A stretch of DNA of 64,000 nt, taken from NCBI GenBank assembly GCA_026913215.1, contig JAPTYK010000001.1, positions 1,488,001-1,552,000 of the forward strand. Reading direction: 5' to 3'. This document shows positions 21,834 through 39,236 of the stretch, in pieces. The translations under genes and the position numbers were made by a program. The notes below the pieces were generated by a model that saw only the letters and a list, made by a program, of their open reading frames with translations, did not search any database and was not told where the DNA came from. This DNA is from Streptomyces diastatochromogenes (GTDB lineage: Bacteria > Actinomycetota > Actinomycetes > Streptomycetales > Streptomycetaceae). Position 1 is the stretch's first letter, and the number at the start of each line of letters is the position of its first letter.

Positions 21834-21882
21834 CCCACACTCCTTCTCGGACCCCGTCAGGACGAACACCATACAACGAGGG

Positions 21883-21898
21883 TGAGCAAGCGCTTAGA
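21883..21898. promoter_or_regulatory. TGAGCAAGCGCTTAGA operator, second copy
   Basis: Identical to 20699-20714, 50 bases upstream of the TetR start. Unusually, it contains the TAA stop (21894-21896) of the YiaA-like gene upstream. Confidence 0.6.
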
Positions 21899-22181
21899 GC
21901 TTCTGGAAGGGGTCGTGCTCGGCGAGGAGCTTCTCCAGGCGGGCCTGGTCGACCCGGCTGACGATCTGGCCGGCCTCCTGGCGGTCGCGGACGACCTTGG
22001 CGAGGGTGAAGGCCGAGGTCGTGAGGTAGAGGACCGAGATCGCGAGGAAGGCCCGCACCCAGGCGCCGGCGTCCAGCTGGAAGATCCCGATGCCCACGGC
22101 GGCGATCGCGATCCCGAAGGAGAGGACCGCCTGCGTGTAGTAGGCGGCGGTGTTCTGCTGCTTGACCGGTGTGTCGCTCAT
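21894..22181 (-). CDS. YiaA/YiaB-family inner membrane protein
   Basis: Intact 95-residue protein, MSDTPVKQQNTAAYYTQAVLSFGIAIAAVGIGIFQLDAGAWVRAFLAISVLYLTTSAFTLAKVVRDRQEAGQIVSR.., with two membrane helices and the conserved charged C-terminal tail of the YiaA/YiaB family. Function unknown. As sequenced, the upstream acyl-CoA dehydrogenase frame reads straight into it, but that apparent fusion is caused by a deletion. A hairpin separates the two genes. Confidence 0.82.
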   Translation of the reverse strand: MSDTPVKQQNTAAYYTQAVLSFGIAIAAVGIGIFQLDAGAWVRAFLAISVLYLTTSAFTLAKVVRDRQEAGQIVSRVDQARLEKLLAEHDPFQKL

Positions 22182-22193
22182 GCCGCACAGCAT

Positions 22194-22225
22194 CGGACGG
22201 ATGTGGCCGGCGCCACATCCGTCCG
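22194..22225 (-). terminator. Terminator after acyl-CoA dehydrogenase
   Basis: Perfect 13-base stem (CGGACGGATGTGG with its complement) around a 6-base loop, between the acyl-CoA dehydrogenase stop and the YiaA-like start. Confidence 0.7.
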
Positions 22226-22251
22226 CGTACTCAGCCACGCGCGGGGCGTAC

Positions 22252-23402: not shown

Positions 23403-23433
23403 GCGGTGCCACCCCACTCGGCCATTTAATTAC

Positions 23434-23453
23434 CACTGCTAGTTTTAGCGGTG
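23434..23453. promoter_or_regulatory. CACTGCTA-N4-TAGCGGTG operator candidate
   Basis: 8-base arms with one mismatch around GTTT, in the 70-base gap between the divergent acyl-CoA dehydrogenase and TetR genes. AT-rich relative to surroundings. Confidence 0.5.
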
Positions 23454-23472
23454 CGGGCCTACTATGTGCGCC

Positions 23473-24152
23473 ATGGCCCGACCGCGCAAGCCCCTGCTCA
23501 GCCGAGAACGCATCGTCGGGACGGCCGGCGCGCTCGTGGACGCGGAGGGCCTCGCGGCGCTCTCCACCCGGCGGCTCGCCGCCGAGCTCGGGGTCAGCGG
23601 GCCCTCGCTCTACAACCACTTCCGCACGAAGGACGAGATCCTCGACGCGGTGGCGGACGCGGTGAGCGCGAAGATCGACCTGTCGATGTTCGCGGAGGAC
23701 GACGGCCGCGACTGGCGCACGGCGCTGCACGACTGGGCGGTCTCCTACCGCGCCGCCCTCGCCGACCACCCGCACATCGTCCCCGTCCTCGCCCAGGGCC
23801 CCGGCCGCCGCCCGGCGGGCCTCAAGGTCGCCGACGCCGTCTTCGGCGCGATGGTCCAGGCCGGCTGGCCCCCGCGCAGGCCACCTCCATCGGCGCGCTG
23901 ATGCGGTACTTCATCACCGGCTCCGCCCTCGGCTCCTTCGCGCGCGGCTTCGTCGACGACGAGACGGCCTACGACCCGGCCGACTACCCCCACCTCGGCC
24001 AGGCCCACCGCCTCGCGGAACACCGCCAGAAGGTCGACGAGGGCGCCTTCGAGACGGGCCTGCGGGCGCTGCTCGACGGGCTGCGGCTCCAGTACGAGGC
24101 GATGCCGGCCGACCGGCGGGCGGTGCGCGCTTCGGCCGCCGCCGAAGGGTGA
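23473..24152 (+). CDS. TetR-family regulator (frame break)
   Basis: About 226 residues, start MARPRKPLLSRERIVGTAGALVDAEG. HTH LAALSTRRLAAELGVSGPSLYNHFRTKDEILDAVAD; the C-terminal half resembles the tetracycline-repressor-class C domain (RYFITGSALGSFARGFVDDETAYDPADYPHLGQ). Six C read as five near 23876. Divergent from an acyl-CoA dehydrogenase, its likely target. Confidence 0.82.
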
Positions 24153-24170
24153 GTGCGGCAGGCTTGCCCC

Positions 24171-24863
24171 ATGGCAGCCAGTGACCTCGCCGCGCTCGCG
24201 GCGCTCTTCGCGGACGAGAGCCGCGCCGCGTTCCTGCTCGCCCTGCTCGACGGGCGGGCCTGGACCGCCGGGGAGCTCGCCCGGCACGCCGGGGTGGCGC
24301 CGTCCACCGCCAGCGAGCACCTCGGGAAACTGGTCGCGGGCGGGGTGCTCGCCGAGGAACGGCAGGGCAGGCACCGGTACGTACGCCTCGCCGACCCCGG
24401 GATCGCGCACCTCGTCGAGGACCTGGCCGCCCGGTCCGAGCCCGAGGTGCCCGCGCCGCCGCGCTCCCTGCGGGCCGCGAGCGCGGGGCGGCGATGGCGC
24501 GCGGCCGGACCTGCTACGACCACCTCGCGGGCCGGCTCGGCATCACGATCACCGATGCGATGACCGAACGGGGCCTGCTGCGCCAGGACACCGGCTTCGC
24601 CCTCACGGACCGCGGCCTGGCCTGGTTCGACGAGCAGGGCATCCCCTCGTACGGCAGGGGCGCCGGCCCGTCGCCCGCGGCTGCCTCGACTGGACCGAGC
24701 GCCGCCCCACCTCGCCGGACTCGCGGGCGCCGCCCTGTGCGGGCACGCCCTGGACGCCGGATGGTGCGTACGGATCGGGTCGGAGCGGGCCGTGAAGGTG
24801 ACTCCGGCGGGCGAGACGGCCCTTCGGGAGACCCTCGGACTCCCGGCGGCGGCCCTGCGCTGA
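24171..24863 (+). CDS. ArsR-family transcriptional regulator (three frame breaks)
   Basis: Winged-helix regulator of about 231 residues. SDLAALAALFADESRAAFLLALLDGRAWTAGELARHAGVAPSTASEHLGKLVAGGVLAEERQGRHRYVRL is a standard ArsR HTH. A second half follows with RTCYDHLAGRLGITITDAMTERGLL, RGCLDWTERRPHLAGLAGAALCGHALDAGWCVRIGSERAVKV, a layout known in larger actinobacterial ArsR/YdfF-type proteins. No metal cysteine pair in the HTH. Breaks near 24487, 24657 and 24703. It may govern the EamA exporter downstream. Confidence 0.75.
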
Positions 24864-25003
24864 GACGGGGGCGGGGCCGGGCGGTCGCGGGCGGGATCCG
24901 GCGGTCGCGGGCACGGTCCGGCGGGCGTGGGTGTCCGGTTCGTGTCCGGCCGCCGGGCGATATTACGGTGAGCGCCGAAGGGTCCGCGTCCTACCGTCGG
25001 AGC

Positions 25004-25914
25004 ATGCAGAAGCAATCCTCGCGGCTCGCGCTCGCGGCCGCCGGTGTCACCGTCGTCCTCTGGGCCTCCGCCTTCGTCTCCATCCGCAGCGCGGGGCGGC
25101 CTACTCCCCGGCGCGCTCGCGCTCGGCCGGCTGCTCGCGGGGGCGCTGGTCCTCGGGGCCGTGCTCCTGGTGCGGCGGGAGGGCTGCTGCCGCGGGCCGC
25201 CTGGCCGGGGATCCTGGTCTCGGGGCTGCTCTGGTTCGGGGTGTACATGGTGGTGCTGAACTGGGGCGAGCAGGAGGTCGACGCGGGCACGGCGGCGATG
25301 GTGGTGAACATCGGACCGATCCTGATCGCCCTGCTCGGCGCGCGGTTCCTCGGGAGTCGCTGCCGCCCCGGCTGCTCGCGGGCATGGCGGTCTCCTTCGC
25401 GGGCGCGGTGACCGTCGGCCTGTCGATGTCCGCCGGGGGCTCCGGCGGGCACGCCTCGGTGCTCGGGGTGGTCCTCTGCCTGCTCGCGGCGGTGGCGTAC
25501 GCGGGCGGGGTGGTGGCCCAGAAGCCGGCGCTCGCCCACGGCAGCGCGCTCCAGGTGACGACCTTCGGCTGCCTGGTGGGGGCGGCGGCCTGTCTGCCCT
25601 TCGCGGGGCGGCTGGTCGAGGAGGCGGGCCGGGCCCCGCTGTCGGCGACCCTGAACATGGTCTACCTGGGGGTCTTCCCGACCGCGCTCGCGTTCACGAC
25701 CTGGGCCTACGCCCTGGCCCGTACGACCGCGGGACGGATGGGCGCGACGACGTACGCCGTGCCCGCCCTCGTCGTGGTCCTCGCCTGGGTGTTCCTGGGC
25801 GAGCTGCCGGGCGTCCTCACGCTCGCCGGGGGTGCGCTGTGCCTCGCGGGCGTGGCCGTATCCCGCTCCCGCCCGCGGGCTTCCGGGGCCGCCGGAACGG
25901 CTCGATCCACCTGA
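25004..25914 (+). CDS. EamA/DMT-family transporter (four frame breaks)
   Basis: Ten-helix drug/metabolite transporter of about 304 residues. N-terminal EamA repeat: LALAAAGVTVVLWASAFVSIRSAG.., ILVSGLLWFGVYMVVLNWGEQEVDAGTAAMVVNIGPILIALLGARFLGE. C-terminal repeat: VLCLLAAVAYAGGVVAQKPAL.., LNMVYLGVFPTALAFTTWAYALARTTAGRMGATTYAVPALVVVLAWVFLGE. Four G/C-run deletions (near 25097, 25111, 25187, 25353) rotate the frame through all three registers, one of the densest error patterns in the window. Substrate unknown. Confidence 0.8.
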
Positions 25915-25930
25915 CAGGCCATACCCCTGG

Positions 25931-25982
25931 TTCCAGTCACTTCGCGGGGGTTTCGGGGGGTCGGGGCCCCCGCCACCTGGAA
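25931..25982. terminator. Terminator-like nested hairpin after EamA gene
   Basis: GCGGGGG pairs with CCCCCGC, and outside it TTCCAG pairs with CTGGAA. Confidence 0.5.
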
Positions 25983-26127
25983 GGGAGAAGCCCGTCAAGC
26001 CCCAGTTCCGGCCGCGCGGCCGACGGGCCACGTTTCGCCGCCCTCCGGCCGGATAGTTTCGAGTCGGTCACATGTGCGGCCGGAACACGACGCTCCGGCG
26101 CCTTCTCGCGAGTCCACGGGGGATCTC

Positions 26128-26935
26128 ATGGCGATTCAGCAGCGGGCCGAGCGGACGAGGCAGGAGATCTTGTCGTCGGCCGCGCGGGTCTTCGACAGAA
26201 TGGGCTACGAGCGGGCGTCCCTGGCCCGGATCGCCGGCGAGGCCCAAGTGACCACCGGCGCCCTCGTCTTCCACTTCGCGACCAAGCCGGAGCTGGCGAC
26301 CGCGGTGCGCGGGCGGGCCCGCGCGGTCACCCGGATCACGGTCGAGTCTGCCTGTCTGTCCACGGAGGGCGTGGGCGGCACCGCGATCGACAAGCTGGTC
26401 ATCACGACCCACGCGCTGATCCGGCTCTTCGAGACCGACCCGGTGGCGCGGGCGGGCGAGCGTCTCGCCCGCGAGCTCCAGCCGACGGCCCCGGGCTCGG
26501 GCAGGACTGCCCTGGCGGCGCGAGGTGTGCCGGCTGGCGCGCTACGCGGTGGCGGAGAAGGCCCTGCGGCCCGGCGTGGACGCGACGGCGGTCGCGGCCC
26601 TGATCGGCTATGTGATCACCGGGGTCGAGCTGGAGATGCGGCGCCCGAGCATGCCCGTCGACGAGTTCTGGGCCGCCGAGAGCGGCGCGCTGCACGAGTC
26701 GGCCGAGGAACGGCTGCGCAGCATCTGGGAGTTGATCCTGCCGGGCCTGGTCCGCCCGACGCCGCCCGCCCGACGCCGCCCGGCCGGTCCCGGCCCCGCC
26801 GAAGGGCCGGTCAGCGACCGCCTCCTGACCGCAGCAGCTGGCGCGCGAAGGCCGCCAGTGAACGTCCCACGCGCTCGCTCGACAGACCGAGTTCGTGCCG
26901 CTGGAACTGGAAGAGCTCGGGCGACAGCGGACTGA
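26128..26935 (+). CDS. ScbR/ArpA-like TetR regulator, butyrolactone-receptor family (frame breaks)
   Basis: TetR-type regulator resembling gamma-butyrolactone receptors: MAIQQRAERTRQEILSSAARVFDRMGYERASLARIAGEAQVTTGALVFHFATKPELATAV closely follows the ScbR N-terminus, and VVARAGxRL is mirrored by DPVARAGERLARELQP. Two C/G deletions near 26499 and 26509 shift the frame; the ligand domain continues as EVCRLARYAVAEKALRPGVDATAVAALIGYVITGVELEMRRPSMPVDEFW. The true C-terminus is uncertain, since the open frame runs 125 bases into the convergent TetR gene and looks unlike protein after about 26760. No butyrolactone synthase (afsA/scbA) is adjacent, so it would be an orphan receptor. Confidence 0.68.
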
Positions 26936-27478
26936 GCGCGATGTCGATCAGCGGGTCCGGGTCCTCGACCCCGTGGTCGATCAGCAGGGTCCGGACGTGG
27001 ACGCGCCAGAACCCGTACGCGCCCGTCCGGAACCTCGCGGGGCCCGTCTCCGCCCCCAGCGCCAGTGGCAGGTGCCGTTCGAGCAGATCGAGCATCGCCA
27101 GGTAGAACGCCGCGAGCCGCTCCCCGCCGGCGCGCCGGGGCCGAGCGGCGGCGGCCCGTAGATGAGCTGCCCCTGGAGCCGGCGCTCGTGCTCGTCGAGC
27201 AGCGCCACCGCCACCGAGGACGGATCGGGGAAGCTCCGGTACAGCGTGGCGCGGCCCACGCCCGCGGCCTTGGCGATCTCGCCCATGGTGACCGTCCGCG
27301 GATCCTGCTCCGCGAAGAGCCGCTCGGCCGCGGCCAGGATCTGGGCGCGGTTGCGTTCCGCGTCCGCACGTCTGCGCGGGGCGACCGGCTGCTCGTCCGC
27401 CGCCTGGAGATCGCCGAGGAGCCCGCCGACCCGGTGCACGGGGGCGGCTCCACGAGCTCGCTGCTCTTCCTCGCTCAT
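26811..27478 (-). CDS. TetR-family regulator (frame break)
   Basis: About 222 residues. HTH DAERNRAQILAAAERLFAEQDPRTVTMGEIAKAAGVGRATLYRSFPDPSSVAVALLDEHERRLQGQL; C-terminal GERLAAFYLAMLDLLERHLPLALGAETGPARFRTGAYGFWRVHVRTLLIDHGVEDPDPLIDIALSPLSPELFQFQRHELGLS. One base is missing near 27135. Divergent from the YdcZ-type transporter operon, with GGACA/TGTCC operators between. Confidence 0.82.
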
Positions 27479-27508
27479 GTACCGACCTTACTTCCCTCGG
27501 GGCTAAGT

Positions 27509-27562
27509 GGACAGCTTGTCCGCTTGCCATGTTCCATGGCATGCTAAACGGACTCAGTGTCC
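27509..27562. promoter_or_regulatory. Operator cluster between TetR and transporter operon
   Basis: GGACA-GCT-TGTCC (27509-27521) and GGAC-N5-GTCC (27550-27562) have centres 41 bases apart, about four helical turns. The perfect palindrome GCCATG-TTC-CATGGC (27526-27540) lies between them, and one more TGTCC half-site follows at 27566-27570. Probably bound by the divergent TetR protein. Confidence 0.5.
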
Positions 27563-27599
27563 ACTTGTCCGCTCGCCATCCCGTCCCAGGGAGATCCAG

Positions 27600-28538
27600 A
27601 TGCACACCGCGCTTCTCGCCGCGGCCCTGCTGGTCGGCTGCCTCCTCGCCGTCCAGGCCTCGGTCAACCTCCAGCTCAACTCGGCCGTCGGCACCCCGTA
27701 CGGCGCCTCGACCATCCAGCTCGGCGTGGCCACCACGCTGCTCGTCGTGCTCGCGGTCGCCGCCGGCGCGCTCGGCGCGCTCGGCAAACTGCCCGACGTG
27801 GAGTGGTGGCAGCTGCTCGGCGGGCTCGCCAGCCCCCTCTACATCACCAGCGGCATCCTGCTGTTCCCACGGCTCGGCGCCCTCGCCGCCGTCGGACTCT
27901 TCGTGACCGGCCAGATGTTCTCCTCGCTCGCCCTCGACCTCTTCGGCCTCCTCGGCCTGAAGCAGAAGGACCTGAGCGTCGGCATCGTCCTCGGCGCCCT
28001 CGCCGTCCTCGCGGGCATCGTCGTGATCATCCGGGGCATGAAGGCCGCGGCCCCTCCCGGCGCCCCCAAGATGTCCGCCGCCGGCCGCGTCGGCTGGCTC
28101 GTCCTCGGCATCGTCGCCGGTGGTGTCCTGCCGGTGCAGGGCGCGGTCAACGCCCAGCTGCGCGCCCAGCTCAAGGAGCCCATCACCGTCGCCGTGATCA
28201 GCTTCGCCGTCGCGACCCTCACCATCGCGATCGTCCTGCTCGTCCTGTACTTCACCCGCAAGACCCCGAAGCCCAAGATCGCCCCGCTGAAGAAGATGCC
28301 CTGGTGGGGCTGGCTCGGTGGCGCCTGCGCCGCCGCGTACGTCACCGGCACCTTCCTGCTCATCCCGACCATCGGCGCGGCCGTGACCATCGCCCTGACC
28401 GTGACCGGCCAGCAGCTGACCTCGGCGCTGATCGACCACAAGGGCCTGTTCAAGCTCCCGCAGCGCTCCCTGACCAAGCCGCGCGCCCTGGGCCTCGCCC
28501 TGCTGATCGCCGGCTCCCTGACCATCCAGCTCGTCTGA
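27600..28538 (+). CDS. YdcZ-type DMT transporter (DUF606, duplicated)
   Basis: Intact 312-residue membrane protein made of two homologous YdcZ/DUF606 repeats of five helices each. The first begins LLAAALLVGCLLAVQASVNLQLNSAVGTPYGASTIQLGVAT, the second WLVLGIVAGGVLPVQGAVNAQLRAQLKEPITVAVISFAVAT, an obvious internal duplication. A lysine-rich cytoplasmic stretch (TRKTPKPKIAPLKKMP) sits in the second half. Start MHTALL at 27600 after GGGAGA. Probably an exporter of a small molecule; first gene of an operon with an MBL and a DsbA-like protein. Confidence 0.85.
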   Translation: MHTALLAAALLVGCLLAVQASVNLQLNSAVGTPYGASTIQLGVATTLLVVLAVAAGALGALGKLPDVEWWQLLGGLASPLYITSGILLFPRLGALAAVGLFVTGQMFSSLALDLFGLLGLKQKDLSVGIVLGALAVLAGIVVIIRGMKAAAPPGAPKMSAAGRVGWLVLGIVAGGVLPVQGAVNAQLRAQLKEPITVAVISFAVATLTIAIVLLVLYFTRKTPKPKIAPLKKMPWWGWLGGACAAAYVTGTFLLIPTIGAAVTIALTVTGQQLTSALIDHKGLFKLPQRSLTKPRALGLALLIAGSLTIQLV

Positions 28539-28610
28539 CCGAGGCCGGCACCTCCCCCGGGCTCCGGCCCGGGGGCCCCGGCCCGATCGGCGCCTCACGA
28601 AAGGCTGCTC

Positions 28611-29411
28611 ATGAAGACGTCCTACACCGCCGGGCCGGACATCCACGTCCTCCCCTCGGCCCTGCCCATCCCGGGCCTCGGCGACCAGCCGGTGAACGCC
28701 TTCCTCGTACGGTCCGGACAGCCGCTCCTCGTGGACACCGGCATGCCCGTCGACCGGGAGGGCTTCCTGGACTCCCTCTGGTCGCTGATCGACCCGGCCG
28801 ATCTGCGCTGGGTCGTCGTCACCCACGACGACCGCGACCACACCGGCGCACTCGCCGGAATCCTCGAGGCGGCGCCGCACGCGAAGGTGCTCGCCAACGC
28901 GATATCACTGACGCGAATATCAGAAGAGTTCAGCATTCCCGAGGAGCGGGTAGTAACTGCGAACCCGGGTAGTCGAGTGAAAGTCGGAGACCGTGAGCTG
29001 AGTTTTCACCGGCCGCCCACCTTCGATTCACCCGGGACCCTTGCCGTGTTCGACCACTCCGATGGGACCCTCTACAGCTCCGACAGCTTCGGCACCGTCG
29101 TCGAAGAAATTCGCCAGGACTTCACCGACCTTTCCGAGGAGGAATTCTTTCACGGTTTCGAAGTGCTGAACCGTGCCATTGCCCCGTGGACCGCCCTGGT
29201 CGACGAGGCGAAGTTCCTCCGCCCCGTGCACGAGCTGGCCGCCCTGCGCCCCGCACGGCTGCTCAGCGCCCACGGGCCGACCGTCGAGGAGGCCGCCGTG
29301 CCCCGCCTCTTCGACGCGATGGCCCGCATCCCGTCCCTGCCCGCCTGGCTGCCCGGCGCCGACCTCGACCTCGAGGCCGCGCTGGACGCCCACGAGTCCA
29401 CCGCCGGCTGA
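28611..29411 (+). CDS. MBL-fold protein, flavodiiron/ODP-like
   Basis: Intact 266-residue metallo-beta-lactamase-fold protein. NAFLVRSGQPLLVDTGMPVD, VVVTHDDRDHTGALAGILEAAPHAKVLAN (HxDxDH variant THDDRDH, resembling flavodiiron domains where the first His is altered), FDHSDGTLYSSDSFG and LLSAHGPTVEEA with the last His. About 28880-29165 is distinctly AT-richer with codons rare in this window (ATA, GTA, AAA, GAA), hinting at recent transfer or a mosaic gene. Substrate unknown; oxygen- or redox-linked chemistry possible. Confidence 0.78.
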   Translation: MKTSYTAGPDIHVLPSALPIPGLGDQPVNAFLVRSGQPLLVDTGMPVDREGFLDSLWSLIDPADLRWVVVTHDDRDHTGALAGILEAAPHAKVLANAISLTRISEEFSIPEERVVTANPGSRVKVGDRELSFHRPPTFDSPGTLAVFDHSDGTLYSSDSFGTVVEEIRQDFTDLSEEEFFHGFEVLNRAIAPWTALVDEAKFLRPVHELAALRPARLLSAHGPTVEEAAVPRLFDAMARIPSLPAWLPGADLDLEAALDAHESTAG

Positions 29412-29449
29412 GCACCGCTCCCGCCCGCGCACCCGAACCGAGGAGAACC

Positions 29450-30151
29450 ATGTCCGACCCGACCACCGCCGACCTGACCCCGCCGCGCGGAGTCGTCACC
29501 GTCTTCTCCGACATCTGGTGTTCCTTCGCGCACATCGCCATCCACCGGCTGCACGCCACCCGGGCCCGCCTCGGCCTGGAGGAGCAGGTCGCCTTCGACC
29601 TGCGCGCCTTCCCCCTGGAACTGCTGAACGACGCCCCGAGCCCGCGCCCCGGCACGGACAGCGAGGTCGCCCGGATGGCCAGCCTGGAGCCGGCCGCCGG
29701 CTGGCAGCTGTGGCAGGCCAAGGACTGGCTGTACCCCTCGACGACGCTGCCCGCCCTGGAGGCGGTGCTCGCCGCCAAGGAGCAGAGCCTGAACGCCTCC
29801 GAGCAGCTCGACCTCGGGCTGCGCCGGGCCTTCTGGGCCGAGTCCCGCTGCATCAGCCACCGCAAGGTGATCCTGGACGTGGCCGCGGAGACGGGCGCCG
29901 TCGACGTCGACGCCCTGACCGAGGCCCTGGACGACGGACGGGCCCGCCGGGCCCTCTCCGACCAGGCCGCGCTGTCCAAGAGCGACCGCGTGAACTGCAG
30001 CCCCCACCTGTTCCTGCCCGACGGCTCCGAGTACGCCAACCCCGGCATCGACGTGGGCTGGGAGGGTGCCTACGGCATCGGCTGGCCGGTCATCGCCTCG
30101 GACGACCCGAAGGTGTACGAGGACATTCTGCTGCGGGCCGCCACGGAATAG
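29450..30151 (+). CDS. DsbA-family oxidoreductase (2-hydroxychromene-2-carboxylate isomerase/FrnE type)
   Basis: Intact 233-residue thioredoxin-fold protein of the DsbA/GST-kappa class. VVTVFSDIWCSFAHIAIHRLHATRARLG places a single Cys (WCSFA) where FrnE proteins have CPWC. LRAFPLELLN, SCISHRKVILDVA-like and VNCSPHLFLPDGSEYANPG are family elements. Start ATG 29450 with AGGAGA. Last gene of the operon; a strong intrinsic terminator begins 34 bases after the stop. Exact reaction unknown, probably thiol-dependent isomerisation or reduction. Confidence 0.78.
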   Translation: MSDPTTADLTPPRGVVTVFSDIWCSFAHIAIHRLHATRARLGLEEQVAFDLRAFPLELLNDAPSPRPGTDSEVARMASLEPAAGWQLWQAKDWLYPSTTLPALEAVLAAKEQSLNASEQLDLGLRRAFWAESRCISHRKVILDVAAETGAVDVDALTEALDDGRARRALSDQAALSKSDRVNCSPHLFLPDGSEYANPGIDVGWEGAYGIGWPVIASDDPKVYEDILLRAATE

Positions 30152-30184
30152 AGCAACAAGCCGCCGCCGGCGGACGAATATCGA

Positions 30185-30239
30185 GAACGACGTTCAGGCA
30201 TTCCCATCAGCGGAATGCCTGGACGTCGTTCCTTTTTTT
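30185..30239 (+). terminator. Intrinsic terminator with U-tract
   Basis: 20-base stem (30185-30204 with 30212-30231, one G-U pair), 7-base loop, followed by C and seven T. Such a classical Rho-independent signal is rare in Streptomyces. It isolates the transporter operon from the next operon. Confidence 0.92.
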
Positions 30240-30287
30240 ATCCCCGAGAACATCGCAGTGATTATTAATTGTGTGACCCCGCTGTTA

Positions 30288-30316
30288 TTCGCAAGGCCGC
30301 CCGAAGCTCCTACAGT
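30288..30316 (+). promoter_or_regulatory. Possible promoter of the azomycin-like operon
   Basis: TTCGCA (30288-30293), 17-base spacer, then TACAGT (30311-30316), within a low-GC stretch, about 55 bases upstream of the first start codon. Match to TTGACA is only 4 of 6. Confidence 0.35.
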
Positions 30317-30369
30317 TTTTTATGCCGCCGGAATTCCGGTGGAGTTTCGTATCGACAGCAGGAGTTCTC

Positions 30370-31548
30370 ATGTCGTTGACCGACAAGGCAGACGTCAGCA
30401 CCTTCGTCGACCTCACCCAGCACGAGATCGAGGCCCTGAAGACCCGGTTCAACCTGGCCGACGCCCACACCCACCAGCGTCAGTCCGTCTCGCAGGAGCG
30501 GATCGTCTCGCGGCTCCCCGAGCTCTGGCACGAGTCCGAGTCGAAGCAGCAGGCCCACTTCGAGCGCCAGTTCGTCGACGCCTTCTTCCGCCTGCACCAG
30601 CAGCCCACCGCACGGGCGATGGACCGGACGCTGCTCTCGTACTCCGCCAGCGTCTCCACGATGGTGGCCGGCATGTTCCTCAAGCAGCGCGGGATGTCCG
30701 TGCAGCTGGTCGAGCCCTGCTTCGACAACCTGGTCGACCTGCTGCGCAACATGCAGGTGCCGCTCGGTCCGGTCGACGAGTCGGTGCTGCACGACAAGGA
30801 CGCCATCTACGACCGTCTGGTCGAGTCGATCGACGCGGACGCGATCTACCTGGTCGACCCGAACAACCCGACCGGCTTCACCCTGCTCGCCGAGAAGCTG
30901 GAGGGCTTCGCCGAGGTCGTGCGCTACTGCGTGGACCACGACAAGGTCCTGGTGATGGACTTCTGCTTCGCCTCCTTCGCGCTCTGCGACGAGGGCATCG
31001 GCCGGGTGGACATCTACAAGCTCCTGGAGGAGTCCGGCGTGACCTACATGGTCATGGAGGACACCGGCAAGACCTGGCCGATCCAGGACGCCAAGTGCGC
31101 CATGATCACCGCCAGCCGGGACATCCAGGAGGAGGTCTACAACCTCCACACCAGCGTCCTGCTGAACGTGTCGCCCTTCGTCCTCAACATGGTCACGCAG
31201 TACATCGAGGACTCCATCGAAGACGGCTTCGCCTCCGTCCGCGACATCATCAAGACCAACGGCGAGGCCGCCCGCACCGCCCTCGACGGCAGCATCCTGG
31301 AGTTCCAGGAGCCGGTCGTCGGCACCAGCGTCGCCTGGTTCCGCATCAAGCCGGAGCACCTGACCGCCACCCAGCTCCAGGCCGTCCTCTTCGACGAGGA
31401 GGTGTACGTCCTGCCGGGCACCTTCTTCTACTGGAACACCAAGGAGAAGGGCGAGCGCTTCGTCCGCCTCGCCCTGGCCCGCGAGCCCGAGGTCTTCGCC
31501 GGCGCGATGGAGCGGATGCGGAAGGTGCTCGAGCGCTATGAGGGCTGA
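30370..31548 (+). CDS. rohP: PLP-dependent L-arginine oxidase/hydroxylase, RohP/MppP-like
   Basis: Fold-type I aminotransferase-like enzyme, 392 residues, intact. MppP and RohP use PLP and O2 to turn L-arginine into 4-hydroxy-2-ketoarginine. Landmarks fit that family rather than ordinary transaminases: N-terminal LTQHE (Glu19) and LADAH (His33, matching the catalytic His29 of MppP), [28 protein letters not shown] (164-169), and EDTGKTWP with the PLP lysine at 234. ATG 30370 after AGGAG. First gene of a run of overlapping genes; its stop overlaps the next start. Family membership is read from sequence; arginine as substrate follows from the family and neighbours. Confidence 0.85.
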
Positions 31549-32076
31549 CACCATCCCCGAGGCGGCCGAGCACTCCCCACGGTGTTCATCGACGCCACCC
31601 TCTTCATGGGCATGCACAGCGCGGACGACGCGGTCCGGACCGGCGCCAAGGCCTTCTTCGCCGGCCGGCTGGCCGCCGGGGACGCCGGCCGGGTCGTCAT
31701 GAACTGGGAGCAGGTCGGCCGCTGCGACGACCTGGTCTGGGGCTACGAGCGGCTGGTGCAGGACGAGTACTACCCCTTCATGGACGTCCTCCACACCGAC
31801 CTGGCCATCGACCGGATCCCGTACGACGAGGACGACGTCCGGCGGGCCTTCACCGCCCCCGAGCTCGACGGCCTGCCCACGCACGAACGCCTGCTGCTCG
31901 CCCAGGTCATCGGCCGGGGCGGTGTGCTGCACACGGCGAGTCCCCGGCTGCTGAAGGCGGCCGACGGCCTGCCCGTCGTGCCGGTCGACGCCGGCGCCGA
32001 GCCCGCGTTCCCCGCCTATCTGGAGGACCTCTACCAGCGCTCGCTGGTGCTGAAGGTCGACTCCGACTCCTTCTGA
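31538..32076 (+). CDS. rohQ: DUF6190 protein, RohQ-like candidate cyclase (frame break)
   Basis: PIN-like DUF6190 protein. The likely start is ATG 31538, overlapping the previous stop, giving [36 protein letters not shown]; a C is missing near 31579, so the open frame now begins at GTG 31582 ([10 protein letters not shown]). Other features: [69 protein letters not shown]. The acidic VFIDAT strand is PIN-like. In the azomycin pathway an equivalent small protein promotes ring closure of guanidinoacetaldehyde to 2-aminoimidazole. Assignment as RohQ rests on position and my memory of that cluster. Confidence 0.62.
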
Positions 32077-32113
32077 CACACCTTCTGAACACCTTGCGAA
32101 GGGCACCCCACTC

Positions 32114-32919
32114 ATGCCTGACACCTACTCCGGGACCGTCGTCCCCCTGATCACCCCGCTCGACGAGCACGGCACCGTCGACGAGCAGAGCGTGGTCCGC
32201 CTCCTGGACCACATCCGGACCGAGGTCACGGGCCTCATGCCGGCCCTGACCTCCGGCGAGGGCTGGAAGCTCGACGCCCGCCAGTGGCAGGACGTCGTCA
32301 CGTACACCGTCAAGCACGCCGCCGGCCTGCCCGTGCTCGCCGGCATCCAGCTCCCCGACACCGCCTCGGTGATCGACCGGCCCGCACGGCGGCCGAGATC
32401 GGCGCCGACGCCGTCGTCGTCACCACGCCGTTCGGCGCCGACGTGACGCAGGACCAGATCGTCGACCACTACCGGGCGATCCGCGCGGCCCTCGACATAC
32501 CGATCTTCCTCTACAACGAGGAGGCGCTGTCGGGCAACCGCATCGAGTTCGACACCCTGATCCGGATCTGCAAGGAGATCCCCGGGATCGTCGGCATCAA
32601 GGAGTCGAGCGGCGACGCCGCCTTCACCCGCAGGATGGCCGAGGCCGGCACCGGCATCCCGGTCTTCGAGGGCTGGGAGAACCTCCTCGTCGACGCCCGC
32701 GGCATCCAGGGCTTCATCGGCCCGCTGGCCAACCTGGAGCCCGGTCTGTGCAACGCGATGCTGGTCGACCCGACCCCGGACCGGCAGGCCGAGATCAACA
32801 CCGTGTGCGAGAAGTACGGCGTCTTCCTCGACGACTGGTACCGCTGGGTCAAGAAGGAACTCCACGCGCGCGGCGTCATCAGCTCCCCCACCACGCACGA
32901 GGAGGCGAAGGCGGCATGA
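32114..32919 (+). CDS. rohR: DHDPS-family aldolase, RohR-like (frame break)
   Basis: Class I (Schiff-base) aldolase/lyase of the dihydrodipicolinate synthase family, 268 residues corrected. Substrate loop ALTSGEGW (44-51), catalytic Tyr in IPIFLYNEEALSGN and Schiff-base Lys in GIVGIKESSGD are all present. The loop reads TSGEG rather than the GTTGE of DapA, so it is not lysine biosynthesis. RohR splits 4-hydroxy-2-ketoarginine into pyruvate and guanidinoacetaldehyde. One G is missing near 32380. ATGA overlap with the next gene. Start ATG 32114 after GAAGGG. Confidence 0.78.
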
Positions 32920-33785
32920 GCACCGTCCCCGCCTCCGCGGTTCCGGTGGCCGCGCACTCGGTCGCGGCCCCGGCCGCGACCTCCCAGCGCGAACTCCACA
33001 CCCTCTACCGGCGGGTGCCCAACCTCGGCGACTACGGTTCGATGACCGCGATCGAGGAGCGGTGGATCCTGCCCAAGGCGCGGGCCTACGAGGCCTCCGC
33101 CCCGAAGTTCGGCTCGGCCGCCGAACTGCTCCAGGCGCTCAAGGAGTTCCTCGCCGAGGAGGAGGCCGCGCTCCCCGAGAGCGCGACCTTCCTCGCCGAA
33201 CACGCCACGCTCGACCAGTTCAAGGTGGTCGTCCGGCAGTTCGCGCTCGACGGGCTCACCGAGTCCGAGTCGCTGCTGCCGGTCGTCCCCCGGCTGCCGT
33301 ACCGCTCGGCGATGGCGGTCTTCCGGGTCCTCATCGACGAACTCGGCTGCGGCAACGAGGAGAAGGCGCACTCCCAGCTCTACCGGGACCTGCTCACCGA
33401 GCTCGGTCTGAGCCTGGAGCTCGACGACTACCTCGACGAGACGGCCCCGGAGTGTTACGCGTACGTCAACATGTTCCACTGGCTGGCGAGCCGGGCCTCG
33501 TCTCCCCAGTACTTCCTGGGGGCGTACGCCTACTTCGAGACCAGCGTCCTGTACGCCTTCCAGAGCTTCGCCCGCGCGGCGCGGCGCCTGGGGATCTCCA
33601 AGGACGCCTACTACACCGAGCACCTGTACATCGACTCCTACCACAGCAACCACATGCGCACGGCGATCCGGTCGCTCGACGAGCCGGACTTCGCGAAGAT
33701 CTGGGCGGGCGTGCGGCTGGCCTCCGACATCGTCGGCGAGGCGACGGAGACGGCCATCGCGCGGGCGCGGGAGACCGTCGCATGA
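32916..33785 (+). CDS. rohS: Heme-oxygenase-like diiron N-oxygenase, RohS-like
   Basis: Intact 289-residue iron-containing redox enzyme of the heme-oxygenase-like diiron (HDO) superfamily (SznF, BesC, UndA, PolF, RohS). Seven-helix pattern, with candidate metal ligands E116/E118, E149 and H152 (NEEKAHSQLYRDLL), E208 (YAYFETSVLYAFQSF), and D240 with H243 or H246 (YIDSYHSNHM). RohS oxidises the amino group of 2-aminoimidazole to the nitro group. The N-terminal 25 residues are Ala/Val-rich and probably disordered. Start and stop both overlap neighbours (ATGA). N-oxygenation is inferred from family and cluster. Confidence 0.78.
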   Translation: MSTVPASAVPVAAHSVAAPAATSQRELHTLYRRVPNLGDYGSMTAIEERWILPKARAYEASAPKFGSAAELLQALKEFLAEEEAALPESATFLAEHATLDQFKVVVRQFALDGLTESESLLPVVPRLPYRSAMAVFRVLIDELGCGNEEKAHSQLYRDLLTELGLSLELDDYLDETAPECYAYVNMFHWLASRASSPQYFLGAYAYFETSVLYAFQSFARAARRLGISKDAYYTEHLYIDSYHSNHMRTAIRSLDEPDFAKIWAGVRLASDIVGEATETAIARARETVA

Positions 33786-34093
33786 CGGCCGTGCCCGCCG
33801 GGCGGCGGGGCTCCGACGAGCCCGTCGTCCGCCAGGTGACCGAGGACCTGGTCCTGGTCGAGGTCGGCGGCCGCAAGGTCCTCGCGGCCGCCCTCTGCCC
33901 CCACCGCGGGGCCGGCTCAGGTACGGCAGGGTCGACGGGGACAGGCTGCGGATCACCTGCCCCTGCACCACACGACCTTCGACCTGGCCAGCGGCGAACG
34001 CCTCACGGGGCGGCCTGTGCCGCCCTCCGGGTGGTCGACGTGCTGCCCGGTCAGGACGAGCGTCCCGAGGCCCTCTCCGGGGGCGCCTCATGA
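33782..34093 (+). CDS. Small Rieske [2Fe-2S] protein (three compensating frame breaks)
   Basis: About 104 residues. As read, the middle is nonsense, but restoring single bases near 33911, 33954 and 34009 gives ALCPHRGARLRYGRVDG.. and LRITCPLHHTTFDLASGERLTG. That is a complete Rieske motif (C-x-H ... C-x2-H). Start and end frames coincide because three bases are missing. Overlaps the diiron gene (ATGA) and the permease gene (4 bases). Probably carries electrons from the reductase encoded two genes downstream to the diiron enzyme (inference). Confidence 0.72.
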   Translation: MTAVPAGRRGSDEPVVRQVTEDLVLVEVGGRKVLAAALCPHRGAGSGTAGSTGTGCGSPAPAPHDLRPGQRRTPHGAACAALRVVDVLPGQDERPEALSGGAS

Positions 34094-35541
34094 CCACCAC
34101 ACCGACCGGGGCGGCGTCCACCGTGACGCCGCCCCGTGCGGCGGTCGACCACGACGGCATCGCGCCGGTGCCCGAGGCGGAACGCACCTCGACGCCGGGC
34201 GACTTCGGCTGGATCTGGCCCTCCGCGCAGTTCTCGTTCGGCACGGTGGTGCTCGGCGCGCTGCCCGTGGTCTTCGGCCTGGGCTGGTGGGCGTCGGCCA
34301 CCGCGATCGCGGTGGGCGTCGCCGTCGGGACGGCGCTGCTGGCGCCGCTCGCCCGGTTCGGCGTCCGCACCGGCACCAACGATCCGGTGTCGAGCGGGGC
34401 GCACTTCGGGGTCCGGGGCAGGGTCGTCGGCAACACCATCACGGTGGTGACGGCGCTCGGCTTCTTCGCGATCGCCGTGTGGACCGGCGGCACGGCCGTC
34501 ATGGTCGCGGGACACCGGCTGCTCTCCACGCCGACGGGTCCGGGCGCGCTGACCGTGGCGATGTTCGTGACGGCGGCGGCGGTCGCGCTGGTCGCCGTGC
34601 GCGGCCACGAGACGCTGGTCCGCACGTACCGGATCACGGCGGTCACCGGCGGGGCGGTGCTCCTCGGCACCGCGCTCGTGCTCGCGCCGAAGTTCGACGC
34701 GGGCTACGCGGGCGGGCCGCTGGCGCTCGACAGCACCCTGCACACCTGGCTGCTCGCGGCGACCGCGTCCGCGACCGTGCCCCTGTCGTACGCCACCTTC
34801 CAGGGCGACTACACCCGCTACATGCCGGCCTCCACCCCCACGGGCCGGGTCGTGCGGGCGAGCGGGGTCTCGATGTTCCTCAGCAGTCTCGCCGCGCTGC
34901 TCACCGGCGCGTACGTGACGACGCTGTTCCCCGTGCCCGACGAGCCGTGGCTGCAGGGGCTGACGGACGCGGTGCCGGGCTGGTTCGCGGTGGCCGTGGT
35001 CGTCTTCGGCTTCGCGGGCACCCTCCCGCAGGCCGGGCTCTGCCTGTACGCGGCCGGGCTCTCCGCCAACTCGGTGTTCTGGCGCTCCTCGCGGGCGGCC
35101 GTGACCACCGTCGTGGCGCTGCTCGCGGCGGCCGTGCTGTACCTCGGGGCGGTGGTGTACGACGCGATGGACGCCATGTCGGCCTTCGTGACGCTGCTGC
35201 TCACGGTCGTGGCCCCGTGGGCTGCCGTGCTCCTCGTCGGGTACGCCTTCCACAGGGGCCGGTACGACGCGGAGGCGCTGCGCGCGTTCACCACGGGCGG
35301 CGGCGGGCGGTACTGGTACACGGGCGGGATCAACCCGAGGGCCGCCACGGCCTTCACCGTCGGCTCGTTCGTGGGGATCCTCTGGGTCAACAACCCGCTC
35401 TACACCGGTCCGCTGACCGGCCTCACGGGCGGGGTGGACCTGAGCCTGCCGGCCTCCTTCGTGGTCGCCGCCGCGCTGTACGGGGTGCTGTGCCGGGTGT
35501 GGCCGGAGCCGCTCCTTCCGCCGACCCCGACTTCGAGGTGA
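34090..35541 (+). CDS. NCS1-family (cytosine/purine permease-like) transporter
   Basis: Intact 483-residue, about 12-helix transporter. GDFGWIWPSAQFSFGTVVLGALPVVFGLGWW and GVRTGTNDPVSSGAHFGVRG are NCS1 hallmarks (substrate loop between helices 1 and 3); GDYTRYMPASTPTGRVV and FTTGGGGRYWYTGGINPRAATAFTVGSFVGILWVN also fit. NCS1 proteins move flat nitrogen heterocycles such as cytosine and hydantoin; a 2-amino- or 2-nitroimidazole is a similar-sized substrate. Embedded in the operon by 4-base overlap, so export or reuptake of the pathway product or intermediate is likely. Confidence 0.83.
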   Translation: MTTTPTGAASTVTPPRAAVDHDGIAPVPEAERTSTPGDFGWIWPSAQFSFGTVVLGALPVVFGLGWWASATAIAVGVAVGTALLAPLARFGVRTGTNDPVSSGAHFGVRGRVVGNTITVVTALGFFAIAVWTGGTAVMVAGHRLLSTPTGPGALTVAMFVTAAAVALVAVRGHETLVRTYRITAVTGGAVLLGTALVLAPKFDAGYAGGPLALDSTLHTWLLAATASATVPLSYATFQGDYTRYMPASTPTGRVVRASGVSMFLSSLAALLTGAYVTTLFPVPDEPWLQGLTDAVPGWFAVAVVVFGFAGTLPQAGLCLYAAGLSANSVFWRSSRAAVTTVVALLAAAVLYLGAVVYDAMDAMSAFVTLLLTVVAPWAAVLLVGYAFHRGRYDAEALRAFTTGGGGRYWYTGGINPRAATAFTVGSFVGILWVNNPLYTGPLTGLTGGVDLSLPASFVVAAALYGVLCRVWPEPLLPPTPTSR

Positions 35542-35545
35542 TGCC

Positions 35546-36466
35546 ATGACCACAGTCCTGCTGACCGTCCGCTCGGTCGTCGAGGAGGCGGAAGGCGTAC
35601 GGGGCCTGCTCCTGGCGGATCCCACGGGCGCCGCACTCGCGCCCTGGGAGCCCGGCGCCCATCTGGAGGTGACGCTGCCGTCCGGCGCGGTCCGGCACTA
35701 CTCGCTCTGCGGCGACCCGGCGGACCGGAGCACGTACCGGCTCGGGGTGCTGCGGGAGCCCGGGGGCCGGGGCGGCTCGGAGGAGGTCCACACCTCCGTC
35801 GGGGAGGGCACGGTCCTGGGGGTGCGGGGGCCGTTCAACCGGTTCCCGCTGGTGCCCGCCGAGCGGTACCTGTTCGTCGCGGGCGGCATCGGCATCACCC
35901 CGCTGCTGCCGATGGTCCGTTCCCTGCCGCCGGGTTCCTGGGCGCTGCTGTACGGCGGCCGGAGCCTGGCGACCATGGCGTACCGCGAGGAGCTCGCCCC
36001 GCTCCCCGGGGTCACGTTCGTCCCGCAGGACACGGCGGGGCTGCCCGACCTGGACGCCGTCCTCGGCGCGCTGCCCCCGTCGACGGCCGTGTACTGCTGC
36101 GGCCCCGAGGGGCTGTTGCGGGCGGTGGAGGAGCGGTGGGCCGGGCCGCTGCACAAGGAGCGGTTCGGTGCGGCGCCGGTGGAGAGGGCCTCCGGCGAGG
36201 GCGGTTTCGAGGTCGAGCTGCGGCGGACCGGGCGGGTTCTGCGCGTGGAGGCCGGCCGGAGCCTGCTCGACGCCGTGCGCGAGGTGGTGCCGGGTGTGGC
36301 GTACTCCTGTGAGGAGGGCTGGTGCGGCACCTGTGAGACGAAGGTGCTCGCCGGGACGCCCGAGCACCACGACTCCGTCCTCGGCGAGGACGAGAAGGCC
36401 GCGGGCACGACGATGATGATCTGCGTCGGGCGCTCGCGCGACGGCCGTCTCGTCCTGGACCTGTGA
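35546..36466 (+). CDS. Ferredoxin:NAD(P)H oxidoreductase, phthalate-dioxygenase-reductase type
   Basis: Intact 306-residue flavin reductase with fused plant-type ferredoxin. Flavin motif RHYSL (50-54), NAD motif VAGGIGITPLLPM (111-123), CCGPEG (184-189), and C-terminal cluster cysteines C255, C260, C263, C293 (SCEEGWCGTC..C). Domain order flavin-NAD-[2Fe-2S] is that of class IA oxygenase reductases. GAGGTG RBS overlaps the end of the permease gene. With the Rieske protein it forms a complete electron chain; no oxygenase large subunit is nearby, so the diiron protein is the probable acceptor. Confidence 0.85.
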   Translation: MTTVLLTVRSVVEEAEGVRGLLLADPTGAALAPWEPGAHLEVTLPSGAVRHYSLCGDPADRSTYRLGVLREPGGRGGSEEVHTSVGEGTVLGVRGPFNRFPLVPAERYLFVAGGIGITPLLPMVRSLPPGSWALLYGGRSLATMAYREELAPLPGVTFVPQDTAGLPDLDAVLGALPPSTAVYCCGPEGLLRAVEERWAGPLHKERFGAAPVERASGEGGFEVELRRTGRVLRVEAGRSLLDAVREVVPGVAYSCEEGWCGTCETKVLAGTPEHHDSVLGEDEKAAGTTMMICVGRSRDGRLVLDL

Positions 36467-36471
36467 CGTGC

Positions 36472-36509
36472 GGGAGCCCGTACCGGCGTGTGTGCCGGTA
36501 CGGGCTTCC
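36472..36509. terminator. Bidirectional terminator hairpin
   Basis: 16-base stem (GGGAGCCCGTACCGGC with its complement, one G-U) around GTGTGT, just after the reductase gene and before the convergent alcohol dehydrogenase stop. It marks the right border of the operon. Confidence 0.8.
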
Positions 36510-36528
36510 GCGCGTCGGTGCCGGGGGG

Positions 36529-37608
36529 TCAGAAGACGACGAGGGCCCGGCCGCCCTTGCCCGCGAGCATGTTCTCGAAGGCGCCCGGGATGCCGTCGAG
36601 GGTGATCCGCTCGGTGACGAGGGCGCCGAGGTCGAGCCGTCCGGCCCTGATGTGGTCGGCGAGCACCGGCAGGTCCTCGGCCGGGTTCGAGTTGCCGTAG
36701 ACGCAGCCGGCCAGGGTGCGGCCCCAGTGGAAGAGCTCCAGGGCGTTGAAGGTGACCTGCTGGTCCTTGCCGCCGATGCCGACGACCGTGGTGCGGCCGC
36801 CGCGCCGGGTGGACTCCCAGGCGGTGCGGATGGTGACGGCGCGGCCGACGCACTCGACGGCCACGTCGACGCCCTGGCCGCCGGTCAGCTTCCGGATGTC
36901 CTTGGCCGTGGTCTCGGAGGCGACGACGTACTCGGTCGCCCCGGCGGCCCGCGCGAGCGCCTCCTTCTCCGGGGAGACGTCCACGGCGACGATCGTGGAC
37001 GCGCCCGCGATCCGGGCGGCCTGGAGGGTGGCGAGGCCCACCCCGCCGACGCCGAAGACGGCGACGGTCTCGCCCTGGCGGACCCGGGCCGAGTGGTGGA
37101 CCGCGCCCCAGCCGGTGAGGACGGCGCAGCCGAGGAGGGCGGCTTCGGTGAGCGGCACGCCGTCGGGGACGGGCAGCACGCAGTTCGCGGCGACGACCGT
37201 CTCCTCGGCGAAGGCGGCGACGTTGAGCCCCGGGTGGAGCTCGGTGCCGTCCTCGGTGCGGGCGTGGACGTTCGCGGCGCCGGTCAGGGCGTTCGCGCAG
37301 AGCCAGACCTCGCCGAGCGAGCAGGGGTGGCAGGTGCCGCAGGACGGCGCCCAGTTGAGGACGACGCCGTCGCCGGGGGCGACGTGGGTGACGCCCTCGC
37401 CGACGGAGACGACGGTGCCCGCGCCCTCGTGGCCGAGGACGGCGGGGACGGGCACGCGCATGGTGCCGTTGGAGAGGGAGAGGTCGGAGTGGCAGACCCC
37501 GGCGGCGGCGAGCCGGACCCGGACCTGGCCGGGGCCGGGCTCGGGGAGTGCGATGCCCGTGATCTCCAGGGGGGAGCCTATGGCGGGCAGGACGGCGGCG
37601 CGGATCAC
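36529..37608 (-). CDS. Zinc-dependent alcohol dehydrogenase
   Basis: Intact 359-residue MDR alcohol dehydrogenase. Catalytic zinc ligands in GVCHSDLS and GHEGAG, structural zinc cysteines [15 protein letters not shown], nucleotide fold [29 protein letters not shown]. The insertion around [28 protein letters not shown] is typical of class III-like/aryl alcohol dehydrogenases. GTG start at 37608 with AAGGAG upstream, 20 bases after the aldehyde dehydrogenase stop, so the two act in sequence on an alcohol and its aldehyde. Confidence 0.88.
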
Positions 37609-37628
37609 GCTGTTCGCTCCTTCTGCGC

Positions 37629-39016
37629 TCAGAACTGGAGGGACTTGGTCTGGAGGTACTCGGAGAGGCCGTGCGCGCCGAGCTCCCGGCCGACGCCGGA
37701 CTGCTTGTAGCCGCCGAAGGGGGCCCGCGGGTTGAAGCGGCCGCCGTTGATGTCGACCTGGCCGGTGTCCATGCGGCGGGCGAAGGCGACGGCCTCGGCC
37801 TGCTCGCCCCAGACGGCCCCGGCGAGGCCGTAGACGGTGCCGTTGGCGATCGCGAGGGCCTCGTCCTCGTCCTCGTACCGCAGGAGCGAGACGACGGGGC
37901 CGAAGATCTCCTCCTGGGCGATGGTCATCTCGGGGGTGACGTCGGCGAAGACGGTCGGGGAGACGTAGTAGCCGGTCTCGCGCGGGGCCTCGGGGCCGCC
38001 GGCGACGAGCCGGGCGCCCTCCTCGACGCCCTTCTCGATGTAGCCGCGCACGCGGGCCCGCTGCTTGGCGCTGACGAGGGGCCGACGCGCTCGCCGGGGA
38101 CGTACTTGGCGACGGCCTCGGCGGCGAGCGCCACCGCTCCTCGTAGCGGTCGGCGGGGATCAGCATCCGGGTCCAGGCGCTGCACGTCTGGCCGGAGTTG
38201 GACATGACGTTGGCGATGCCGACGGCGACGGCCTTGGGCAGGTCGGCGCTCGGCAGGATCACGTTGGCGGACTTGCCGCCGAGTTCGAGGGCGACCCGCT
38301 TGACCGCGCCGCCCGCGAGGGCGCCGATCCGCTTCCCCACGGCGGTGGAGCCGGTGAAGGAGACGAGGTCCACGCCGGGGTGCTCGGCGAGTGCCTGTCC
38401 GGCGACCGGGCCGAGGCCGGTGACCAGGTTGAAGACGCCGGCGGGGATGCCCGCCTCGTGGACGGCCTCGGCGAAGAGCTGGGCGGTGAGCGGGGTGTCC
38501 TCGGCGGGCTTGAGGACCGTGGTGCAGCCGGCGGCGAGGGCCGGGGCAACCTTGGCGACGATCTGGTGGAGCGGGTAGTTCCAGGGGTGATCGCGGCGAC
38601 GACGCCGACGGGCTCGGCGTAGACGGTGGAGTTGCCGACCTTCTCCTCGAAGGGGTGGGTGGCGGCGAGTTCGGCGTACGAGCCGGCGACGGCGATCGGC
38701 AGTCCGGCGTGCACGGCGGCGGCCAGCTGCGGCGGGGCGCCGAGTTCGGCGGTGACGGTGGCGGCGATCTCCTCGGCGCGGGCGGCGAGCGCGTCGCGGA
38801 GGGCGGCGATGCGGGCTCCGCGCTCGGCGGGCGGGGTGGCGGCCCAGCCGGGAGCGCGGCGCGGGCGGCGCGCACGGCGGCGTCGACGTCCTCGGCGGTG
38901 CCGGCCGGGACGTGGGCGATGACCTGCTCGTCCTTCGGGTCGATCACCGGGATGGTGTCCGTCGAGGAGGCGGGGCGCCACTCCCCGCCGATGTACATCG
39001 CGTCGTGGGCCTTCAT
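37629..39016 (-). CDS. Aldehyde dehydrogenase (four frame breaks)
   Basis: NAD(P)-dependent aldehyde dehydrogenase, about 463 residues after restoring single bases near 38851, 38587, 38135 and 38082. [74 protein letters not shown] with general-base Glu; [15 protein letters not shown] with catalytic Cys; [64 protein letters not shown]. First gene of the pair with alcohol dehydrogenase. An inverted repeat lies 48 bases upstream. Confidence 0.87.
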
Positions 39017-39063
39017 CCGCTGGTCTCCTCGGGTCGCCGGTTCCGCGTCTTCCTCGTCGCCTC

Positions 39064-39082
39064 AAACTAGCGCTGTTAGTTT
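39064..39082. promoter_or_regulatory. AAACTA-N7-TAGTTT operator candidate
   Basis: Perfect 6-base arms, AT-rich, upstream of the aldehyde/alcohol dehydrogenase operon. The rest of the 337-base gap 39017-39353 holds only GC-rich sequence and short tandem repeats; I see no gene in it. Confidence 0.5.
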
Positions 39083-39236
39083 TCTGGCGCCAGGGTTCGC
39101 CGGAGTGCCCCAGGTCTCACCCGGCGGCGCACCACGGCGCCGCTCGATCGTGCCGCCCCGGCCCACGGGCTGTCCACGTGCGCCCCTCACAGCAGTGCGC
39201 CCGCGGAACTGGTGGATCCCTCCCGTACGGCACGGC

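Follow-up and report, generated by a model that had tools for sequence, protein, structure and literature searches.

A probable azomycin operon of Streptomyces diastatochromogenes with a candidate electron supply for RohS

Nitroimidazoles are important drugs, and azomycin (2-nitroimidazole) is a natural one. Here we analyze a 64,000-nucleotide stretch of Streptomyces diastatochromogenes (assembly GCA_026913215.1, contig JAPTYK010000001.1, positions 1,488,001 to 1,552,000; hereafter the window) that holds an operon-like run of seven genes, four of them of the roh type associated with azomycin. The closest described system is the azomycin cluster rohPQRST of Streptomyces eurocidicus, which has counterparts in Kitasatospora azatica, Streptomyces cattleya (RohP) and Pseudomonas (PMC12713392, PMC10724926). 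In the published pathway, L-arginine is first oxidised by RohP at the expense of O2, RohR acts as a retro-aldolase, cyclisation by RohQ gives 2-aminoimidazole, and RohS turns this into 2-nitroimidazole (PMC10724926, PMC7497351, PMC12713392). An earlier note, written from the sequence of the window, had credited the pathway to S. cattleya; the same papers name that species for RohP, and tie the pathway itself to S. eurocidicus and K. azatica. Published RohS assays used phenazine methosulfate (PMS), NADH and iron, and with this artificial electron mediator the K. azatica enzyme (KaRohS) is slow in vitro, with a kcat of 0.23 per minute (PMC10724926). A related enzyme, the heme-oxygenase-like diiron oxygenase (HDO) MboA of mangotoxin biosynthesis, needs the NAD(P)H, flavin and Fe2S2 reductase MboB, for which PMS is no substitute; PMC13185094 calls the two possibly the first characterised dedicated redox pair among HDOs.

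The window operon, whose arrangement we call type A, resembles the rohPQRST cluster in grouping the four enzyme types P, Q, R and S together, in their catalytic residues, and in a further gene directly after rohS. It differs in that the Rieske protein is free-standing, a methyltransferase is missing, an NCS1 permease and a reductase are added, and TetR, YdcZ, metallo-beta-lactamase-fold (MBL) and DsbA-family genes lie upstream. The pathway is already known, and the window is a member of a distinct lineage, a variant by virtue of its permease and reductase. Our best overall explanation, which we consider likely, is an apparent seven-gene operon that makes azomycin and supplies RohS with electrons. 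The run occupies 30370-36466 of the + strand, with the following features:

30185..30231, + strand: predicted intrinsic terminator 3' of the DsbA-family gene, a 20-pair stem then CTTTTTTTAT
30370..31548, + strand: rohP, predicted O2- and pyridoxal phosphate (PLP)-dependent L-arginine oxidase
31582..32076, + strand: rohQ, DUF6190 protein and predicted cyclodehydratase; frame break immediately before its start
32114..32919 (approximate), + strand: rohR, predicted retro-aldolase of the dihydrodipicolinate synthase (DHDPS) family; split over two frames in this assembly
32916..33785, + strand: rohS, heme-oxygenase-like diiron protein predicted to N-oxygenate 2-aminoimidazole to 2-nitroimidazole
33782..34093, + strand: Rieske [2Fe-2S] protein, predicted to donate electrons to RohS; its frame is broken in this assembly
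34090..35541, + strand: NCS1-family permease, predicted imidazole transport
35546..36466, + strand: phthalate-dioxygenase-reductase-type protein with flavin, NAD and [2Fe-2S] parts; predicted reducer of the Rieske protein
36467..36514, + strand: long GC-rich inverted repeat 3' of the reductase gene, 21-pair stem, -47.5 kcal/mol; may be a terminator, though it has no T run and the terminator scan did not report it

The stem and T run at 30185-30231 separate the seven genes from the upstream DsbA-family gene; the scan found four terminator-like sites against 1.4 expected in shuffles. Gaps of 33 (P-Q), 37 (Q-R) and 4 bases (permease-reductase) and overlaps of 4 bases (R/S and Rieske/permease) mark the run, and the 4-base overlaps of rohS with the Rieske gene and of the Rieske gene with the permease recur in most type A relatives. 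The earlier note had placed four consecutive, mostly overlapping genes in this interval. The four are there, in the order and of the families it named (PLP oxidase, DUF6190, DHDPS-type aldolase, heme-oxygenase-like diiron protein). Three more genes share the interval, however, only rohR and rohS among the four overlap, and two of the four are disturbed, the aldolase being split over two frames and the DUF6190 gene frame-broken before its GTG start.

We compared the locus with two sets of relatives. A scan of one genome per species with RohP, able to detect only close relatives, yielded 25 encoding stretches that reduce to 22 distinct loci; these loci constitute type A. The nearest loci are from Streptomyces, with ~93-95% identity across many kilobases. 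Because the order P-Q-R-S-Rieske-permease is kept in 22/22 of these loci, the arrangement is not a product of chance. A reductase match is present in 20 of the 22 (partial in L014) and absent from L016 and L022. Among 392 Streptomyces genomes, 47 encode a RohP homologue (E up to 1e-30), at 52 listed places. Thirty-two of these places, in 30 genomes, are at least 60% identical, 16 of them at 83-100% (the type A range) and 16 at 61-66%. Counts out of 38 loci or relatives below refer to the 22 type A loci plus all 16 loci of the 61-66% group, the 83-100% group not being added.

The 61-66% group comprises twelve type B loci, three type C loci and the unplaced L040. Type B carries a PRMT-like methyltransferase after the Rieske domain (12/12), which is absent from type A (0/22), along with a downstream DsbA-family gene in 11 of 12, an upstream TetR relative in 8 of 12 and a multicopper oxidase in 6 of 12; in type C the DsbA-family gene is divergent and upstream (3/3). 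In the RohP tree, types A and B form clades with support of 98/99 and 100/99. The large multicopper oxidase gene follows the Rieske-methyltransferase in L030 and L032-L036. Two Streptomyces genomes each have two RohP proteins at least 60% identical, one in loci L030 and L039 (genome G302) and the other (G321) with one RohP in the type A range (93%) and one type B locus (L035). A methyltransferase of Kitasatospora azatica (P0273) is without a Rieske domain. On a P. aeruginosa plasmid, a partial relative of the Rieske-methyltransferase is encoded between mer genes and genes for conjugation (L061, 7965-8726).

All four enzymes fit the roh assignment that had been proposed, three of them by comparison with solved roh proteins. 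RohP matches PDB entry 6c3a at E 4.3e-163; this entry, titled 'Uncharacterized protein', we take to be S. cattleya RohP. The motifs LTQHE, ADAHTHQ and DTGKTWP are kept in 38/38 relatives, and the residues singled out before (Glu19 in LTQHE, His33 and Lys234) are all found in the window protein. The 6c3a protein scores 546 bits, which falls with the 61-66% identical RohP group (532-573 bits) and below the window's own group (at least 729 bits), so the operon belongs to a lineage distinct from the one into which 6c3a seems to fall. RohQ is a DUF6190 protein (PF19689, E 1.9e-64) that matches the solved RohQ structures 9c5w and 9oq8, giving the run the DUF6190 cyclodehydratase of the roh pathway. 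RohS matches PF14518 (E 8e-39) and PbrRohS (9pfx, E 1.8e-49). Its predicted Glu/His/Asp ligands are kept as claimed, and the seven positions E116, E142, H152, E208, H236, D240 and H243 are invariant in 38/38 relatives. For RohR, PF00701 is detected on both pieces (open reading frames 32114-32446 and 32284-32919), the aldolase Tyr (codon 32512) and Lys (codon 32599) are both retained here and conserved in 38/38 relatives, and 268 codons are open in the close relative L002; family, catalytic residues and position together place it as the putative retro-aldolase. The contiguous order P, Q, R, S is shared by the window and 38/38 loci. Elsewhere in this genome lie two more RohS-like stretches, at C1:579666-580193 (L024) and C2:42153-42635 (L025), with 33% and 26% identity over part of the protein.

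Conversion of L-arginine to azomycin is likely because RohP-, RohQ-, RohR- and RohS-type proteins occur in the published rohPQRS order. Judging from their published counterparts, the RohP, RohR and RohQ copies would take L-arginine to 2-aminoimidazole, which RohS would N-oxygenate to azomycin. An azomycin-type product formed by this route is very probable; like the earlier note, we infer its identity. Imidazole transport may fall to the NCS1 permease and to the YdcZ protein encoded upstream.

How might RohS receive its electrons? The Rieske protein, intact in L002 (103 residues, PF00355, E 9.3e-11), has dioxygenase ferredoxins as its best PDB matches. Its gene lies directly 3' of rohS and its motifs C-x-H and C-x-x-H are present in all 38 loci; fifth in the run, it is possibly rohT. 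The permease (PF02133, E 1.4e-48; weak match to the hydantoin permease Mhp1, 2jln, E 0.003) is found in 22/22 type A loci. The last protein matches phthalate dioxygenase reductase (2pia) at E 2.9e-52, three P450-linked proteins scoring in the same range; it has an NAD domain and a Fer2 domain (E 8.5e-12), with C-x4-C-G-x-C in 20/20 relatives. Given the RohS-Rieske adjacency in 38/38 loci, the tie of permease and reductase to roh, the overlapping genes and the MboB precedent, it is reasonably likely that the reductase and the Rieske protein pass NADH electrons to RohS. Electrons would run from NAD(P)H to the reductase flavin, then to its plant-type [2Fe-2S] cluster, the Rieske [2Fe-2S] cluster and finally the RohS diiron site.

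Several observations weigh against this explanation. The reductase is missing from L016 and L022 (2/22 type A) and from 16/16 type B and C loci in the stretch fetched, so at those loci the role must fall to other reductases. Neither a permease nor a reductase match occurs at the 16 loci outside type A, in fetched stretches that extend 2.2 to 7.7 kb beyond the Rieske gene. Moreover, a review states that none of the HDOs examined so far requires a protein effector (PMC13108848). Permease and reductase could be passengers, with RohS running on housekeeping reductants and the Rieske protein used otherwise, for instance for the methyltransferase or in redox sensing. A link to the methyltransferase has some basis, since the two domains are fused in L032 (9413-10735) and in the proteobacterial proteins P0313, P0318 and P0345; these three show both Rieske motifs, though the precomputed Pfam list omits the domain. 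Against the passenger idea stand the Rieske gene immediately after rohS in every locus, the 4-base gene overlaps, and seven loci without roh (described below) in which permease and reductase are absent as well, while TetR and YdcZ remain. From this gene content, permease and reductase go with PQRST, and TetR and YdcZ do not. We regard the passenger alternative as unlikely, although it survives best.

Less probable still, and by a clear step, is a second alternative, in which 2-aminoimidazole is made and then turned into a derivative other than azomycin, type A having its own permease and reductase and no methyltransferase. The methyltransferase lies next to or is fused with the Rieske domain in type B, so the end product or its handling could differ between the types, and type A forms a RohP clade of its own. 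According to PMC13108848, the SznF HDO domain goes no further than two hydroxylations. The RohS ligand positions are nonetheless identical in types A, B and C. In addition, Pseudomonas strains with rohPQRST make azomycin (PMC12713392), K. azatica and Saccharothrix RohS make it in vitro (PMC10724926), and the pathway as reconstituted in the latter paper uses RohP, RohR, RohQ and RohS. These results favor azomycin over another derivative.

A third alternative is that the cluster is decaying in this strain. Here rohR and the Rieske gene are broken and the rohQ start is lost, affecting three of seven genes; if these breaks are real, the strain would hardly make azomycin. Some relatives also lack roh at the same site. 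Over about 20.4-39.1 kb of the window we counted the frame-changing differences from its close relatives L001, L002, L003 and L021 that at least three of these four support. There are 27: 24 one-base deletions relative to all four, two relative to three of four, and one one-base gain. Five affect the operon, three of them in the Rieske gene and one each in rohR and at the rohQ start; the other 22 lie outside, by position also in neighbouring EamA, TetR and aldehyde dehydrogenase genes. The 26 private deletions, 21 of them outside the operon, are thus spread along the whole interval, which favors assembly error over decay of a single cluster. The rohP, rohS, permease and reductase frames are open in the window, all seven genes are open and free of stops in L002, and the assembly (7 contigs) is 88.96% complete. 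The breaks are probably assembly errors, and we give decay very little credence. Gene calls at 20400-39100 need care owing to these deletions.

Finally, an enzyme set of the enduracididine (Mpp) type is largely refuted: RohP is a homologue of MppP (5dj1, E 1.1e-57; TIGR04462, 182 bits) from the same PLP-oxidase superfamily acting on L-arginine, but 6c3a is a far better match than 5dj1, and the neighbours match RohQ and RohS. The MppP equivalog was rejected, the TIGR04462 score of 182.4 lying far below the curated cut-off of 450 bits.

Upstream of the terminator lie four further genes:

26811..27541, - strand: TetR-family regulator, position approximate, taken from the collinear L002 6443-7171; its frame is disrupted in this assembly, with one private deletion inside; Pfam TetR_N on the L002 copy
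27507..28538, + strand: predicted exporter, a DMT membrane protein of the YdcZ type (L002 copy: PF04657, E 2.2e-65); listed open reading frame, natural start probably further in
28611..29411, + strand: ODP-type MBL protein (PF19583, E 7.6e-13 on the L002 copy)
29450..30151, + strand: DsbA-family single-cysteine (CSFAH) protein, roh-linked in three arrangements

The TetR and YdcZ genes are each present in 21/22 type A loci, the TetR exception being L005, which begins 160 bases before rohP. The MBL gene occurs in 21/22 type A loci, against 2/7 roh-less loci with the same neighbours. The DsbA-family gene accompanies roh in 35/38 loci, missing at L005 and L036 (contig ends) and L040. Within the 392 Streptomyces genomes, at a cut-off of E 1e-70, it occurs in 29 of the 30 that carry roh and in 8 of the other 362 (Fisher p 1.8e-35, uncorrected for relatedness). 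All 35 copies have a single cysteine, in CSFAH, at the active site. The fold is FrnE/kappa-GST/HCCA-isomerase-like, and with E up to 0.1 no PDB sequence matches the protein; its difference from those folds is the one cysteine in the CSFAH motif.

A wider DsbA search (E up to 1e-20) found 66 places in 58 of 392 genomes, of which 15 were fetched. Seven of them (L046-L052) have TetR and YdcZ beside the DsbA-family gene and contain no rohP, rohQ, rohR, rohS, Rieske, permease or reductase gene; the L052 genome has a type B cluster elsewhere. At five of these sites (L046-L049 and L052) the flanks on either side align with those of L002, and the space from the DsbA stop to an alcohol dehydrogenase gene lacks the run; in L047 part of that gene is absent too. 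At L053-L058 the DsbA-family gene stands by itself; the genomes of L059 and L060 carry roh on a different contig. In the DsbA tree, which omits the broken L014 copy, roh-less copies fall inside roh-linked groups at several places (L046-L049; L052 beside L012; L050 and L051 beside L015; L053 beside type C). This fits repeated loss of roh with the DsbA-family gene kept, repeated gain of roh being the alternative. Retention of the gene at the seven roh-less loci is a selection effect, since it served as the bait, and this too counts against our reading. Because the reconstituted pathway does without DsbA, the gene persists without roh, and it adjoins the exporter-like YdcZ gene in type A, we tentatively suggest that its product protects the producer from its own nitroimidazole by thiol chemistry; this is our weakest inference.

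That both ideas hold, a three-component RohS fed from NADH through reductase and Rieske ferredoxin and a DsbA-family protein as an unrecognised azomycin self-protection gene, falls somewhat short of an even prospect. If type A operons encode the native donors of RohS, its partners could be tested at once and enzymatic nitration perhaps made faster, and the DsbA-family gene is a candidate explanation of how a producer tolerates its own nitroimidazole. In the open-access literature searched, no relevant paper joins azomycin or RohS with a Rieske protein, and no description of a reductase-Rieske-HDO wiring was found for any HDO; subscription papers, outside this scope, may discuss RohT. A Rieske-fed HDO, if true, would be a new wiring in the superfamily. 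The operon is like MboA/MboB in pairing an HDO with an NAD(P)H/flavin/Fe2S2 reductase of the same cluster, and differs in that a Rieske protein would sit between the two and in substrate and reaction. The toluene 4-monooxygenase chain T4moF, T4moC and T4moH consists of a flavin/[2Fe-2S] reductase, a Rieske ferredoxin and a diiron oxygenase. Our operon likewise encodes a flavin/NAD/[2Fe-2S] reductase and a Rieske ferredoxin (frame-broken in the window), but the oxygenase of that system is ferritin-like and has an effector protein, whereas RohS is heme-oxygenase-like (PF14518). RohS may therefore work like a toluene 4-monooxygenase-type three-component system without being one.

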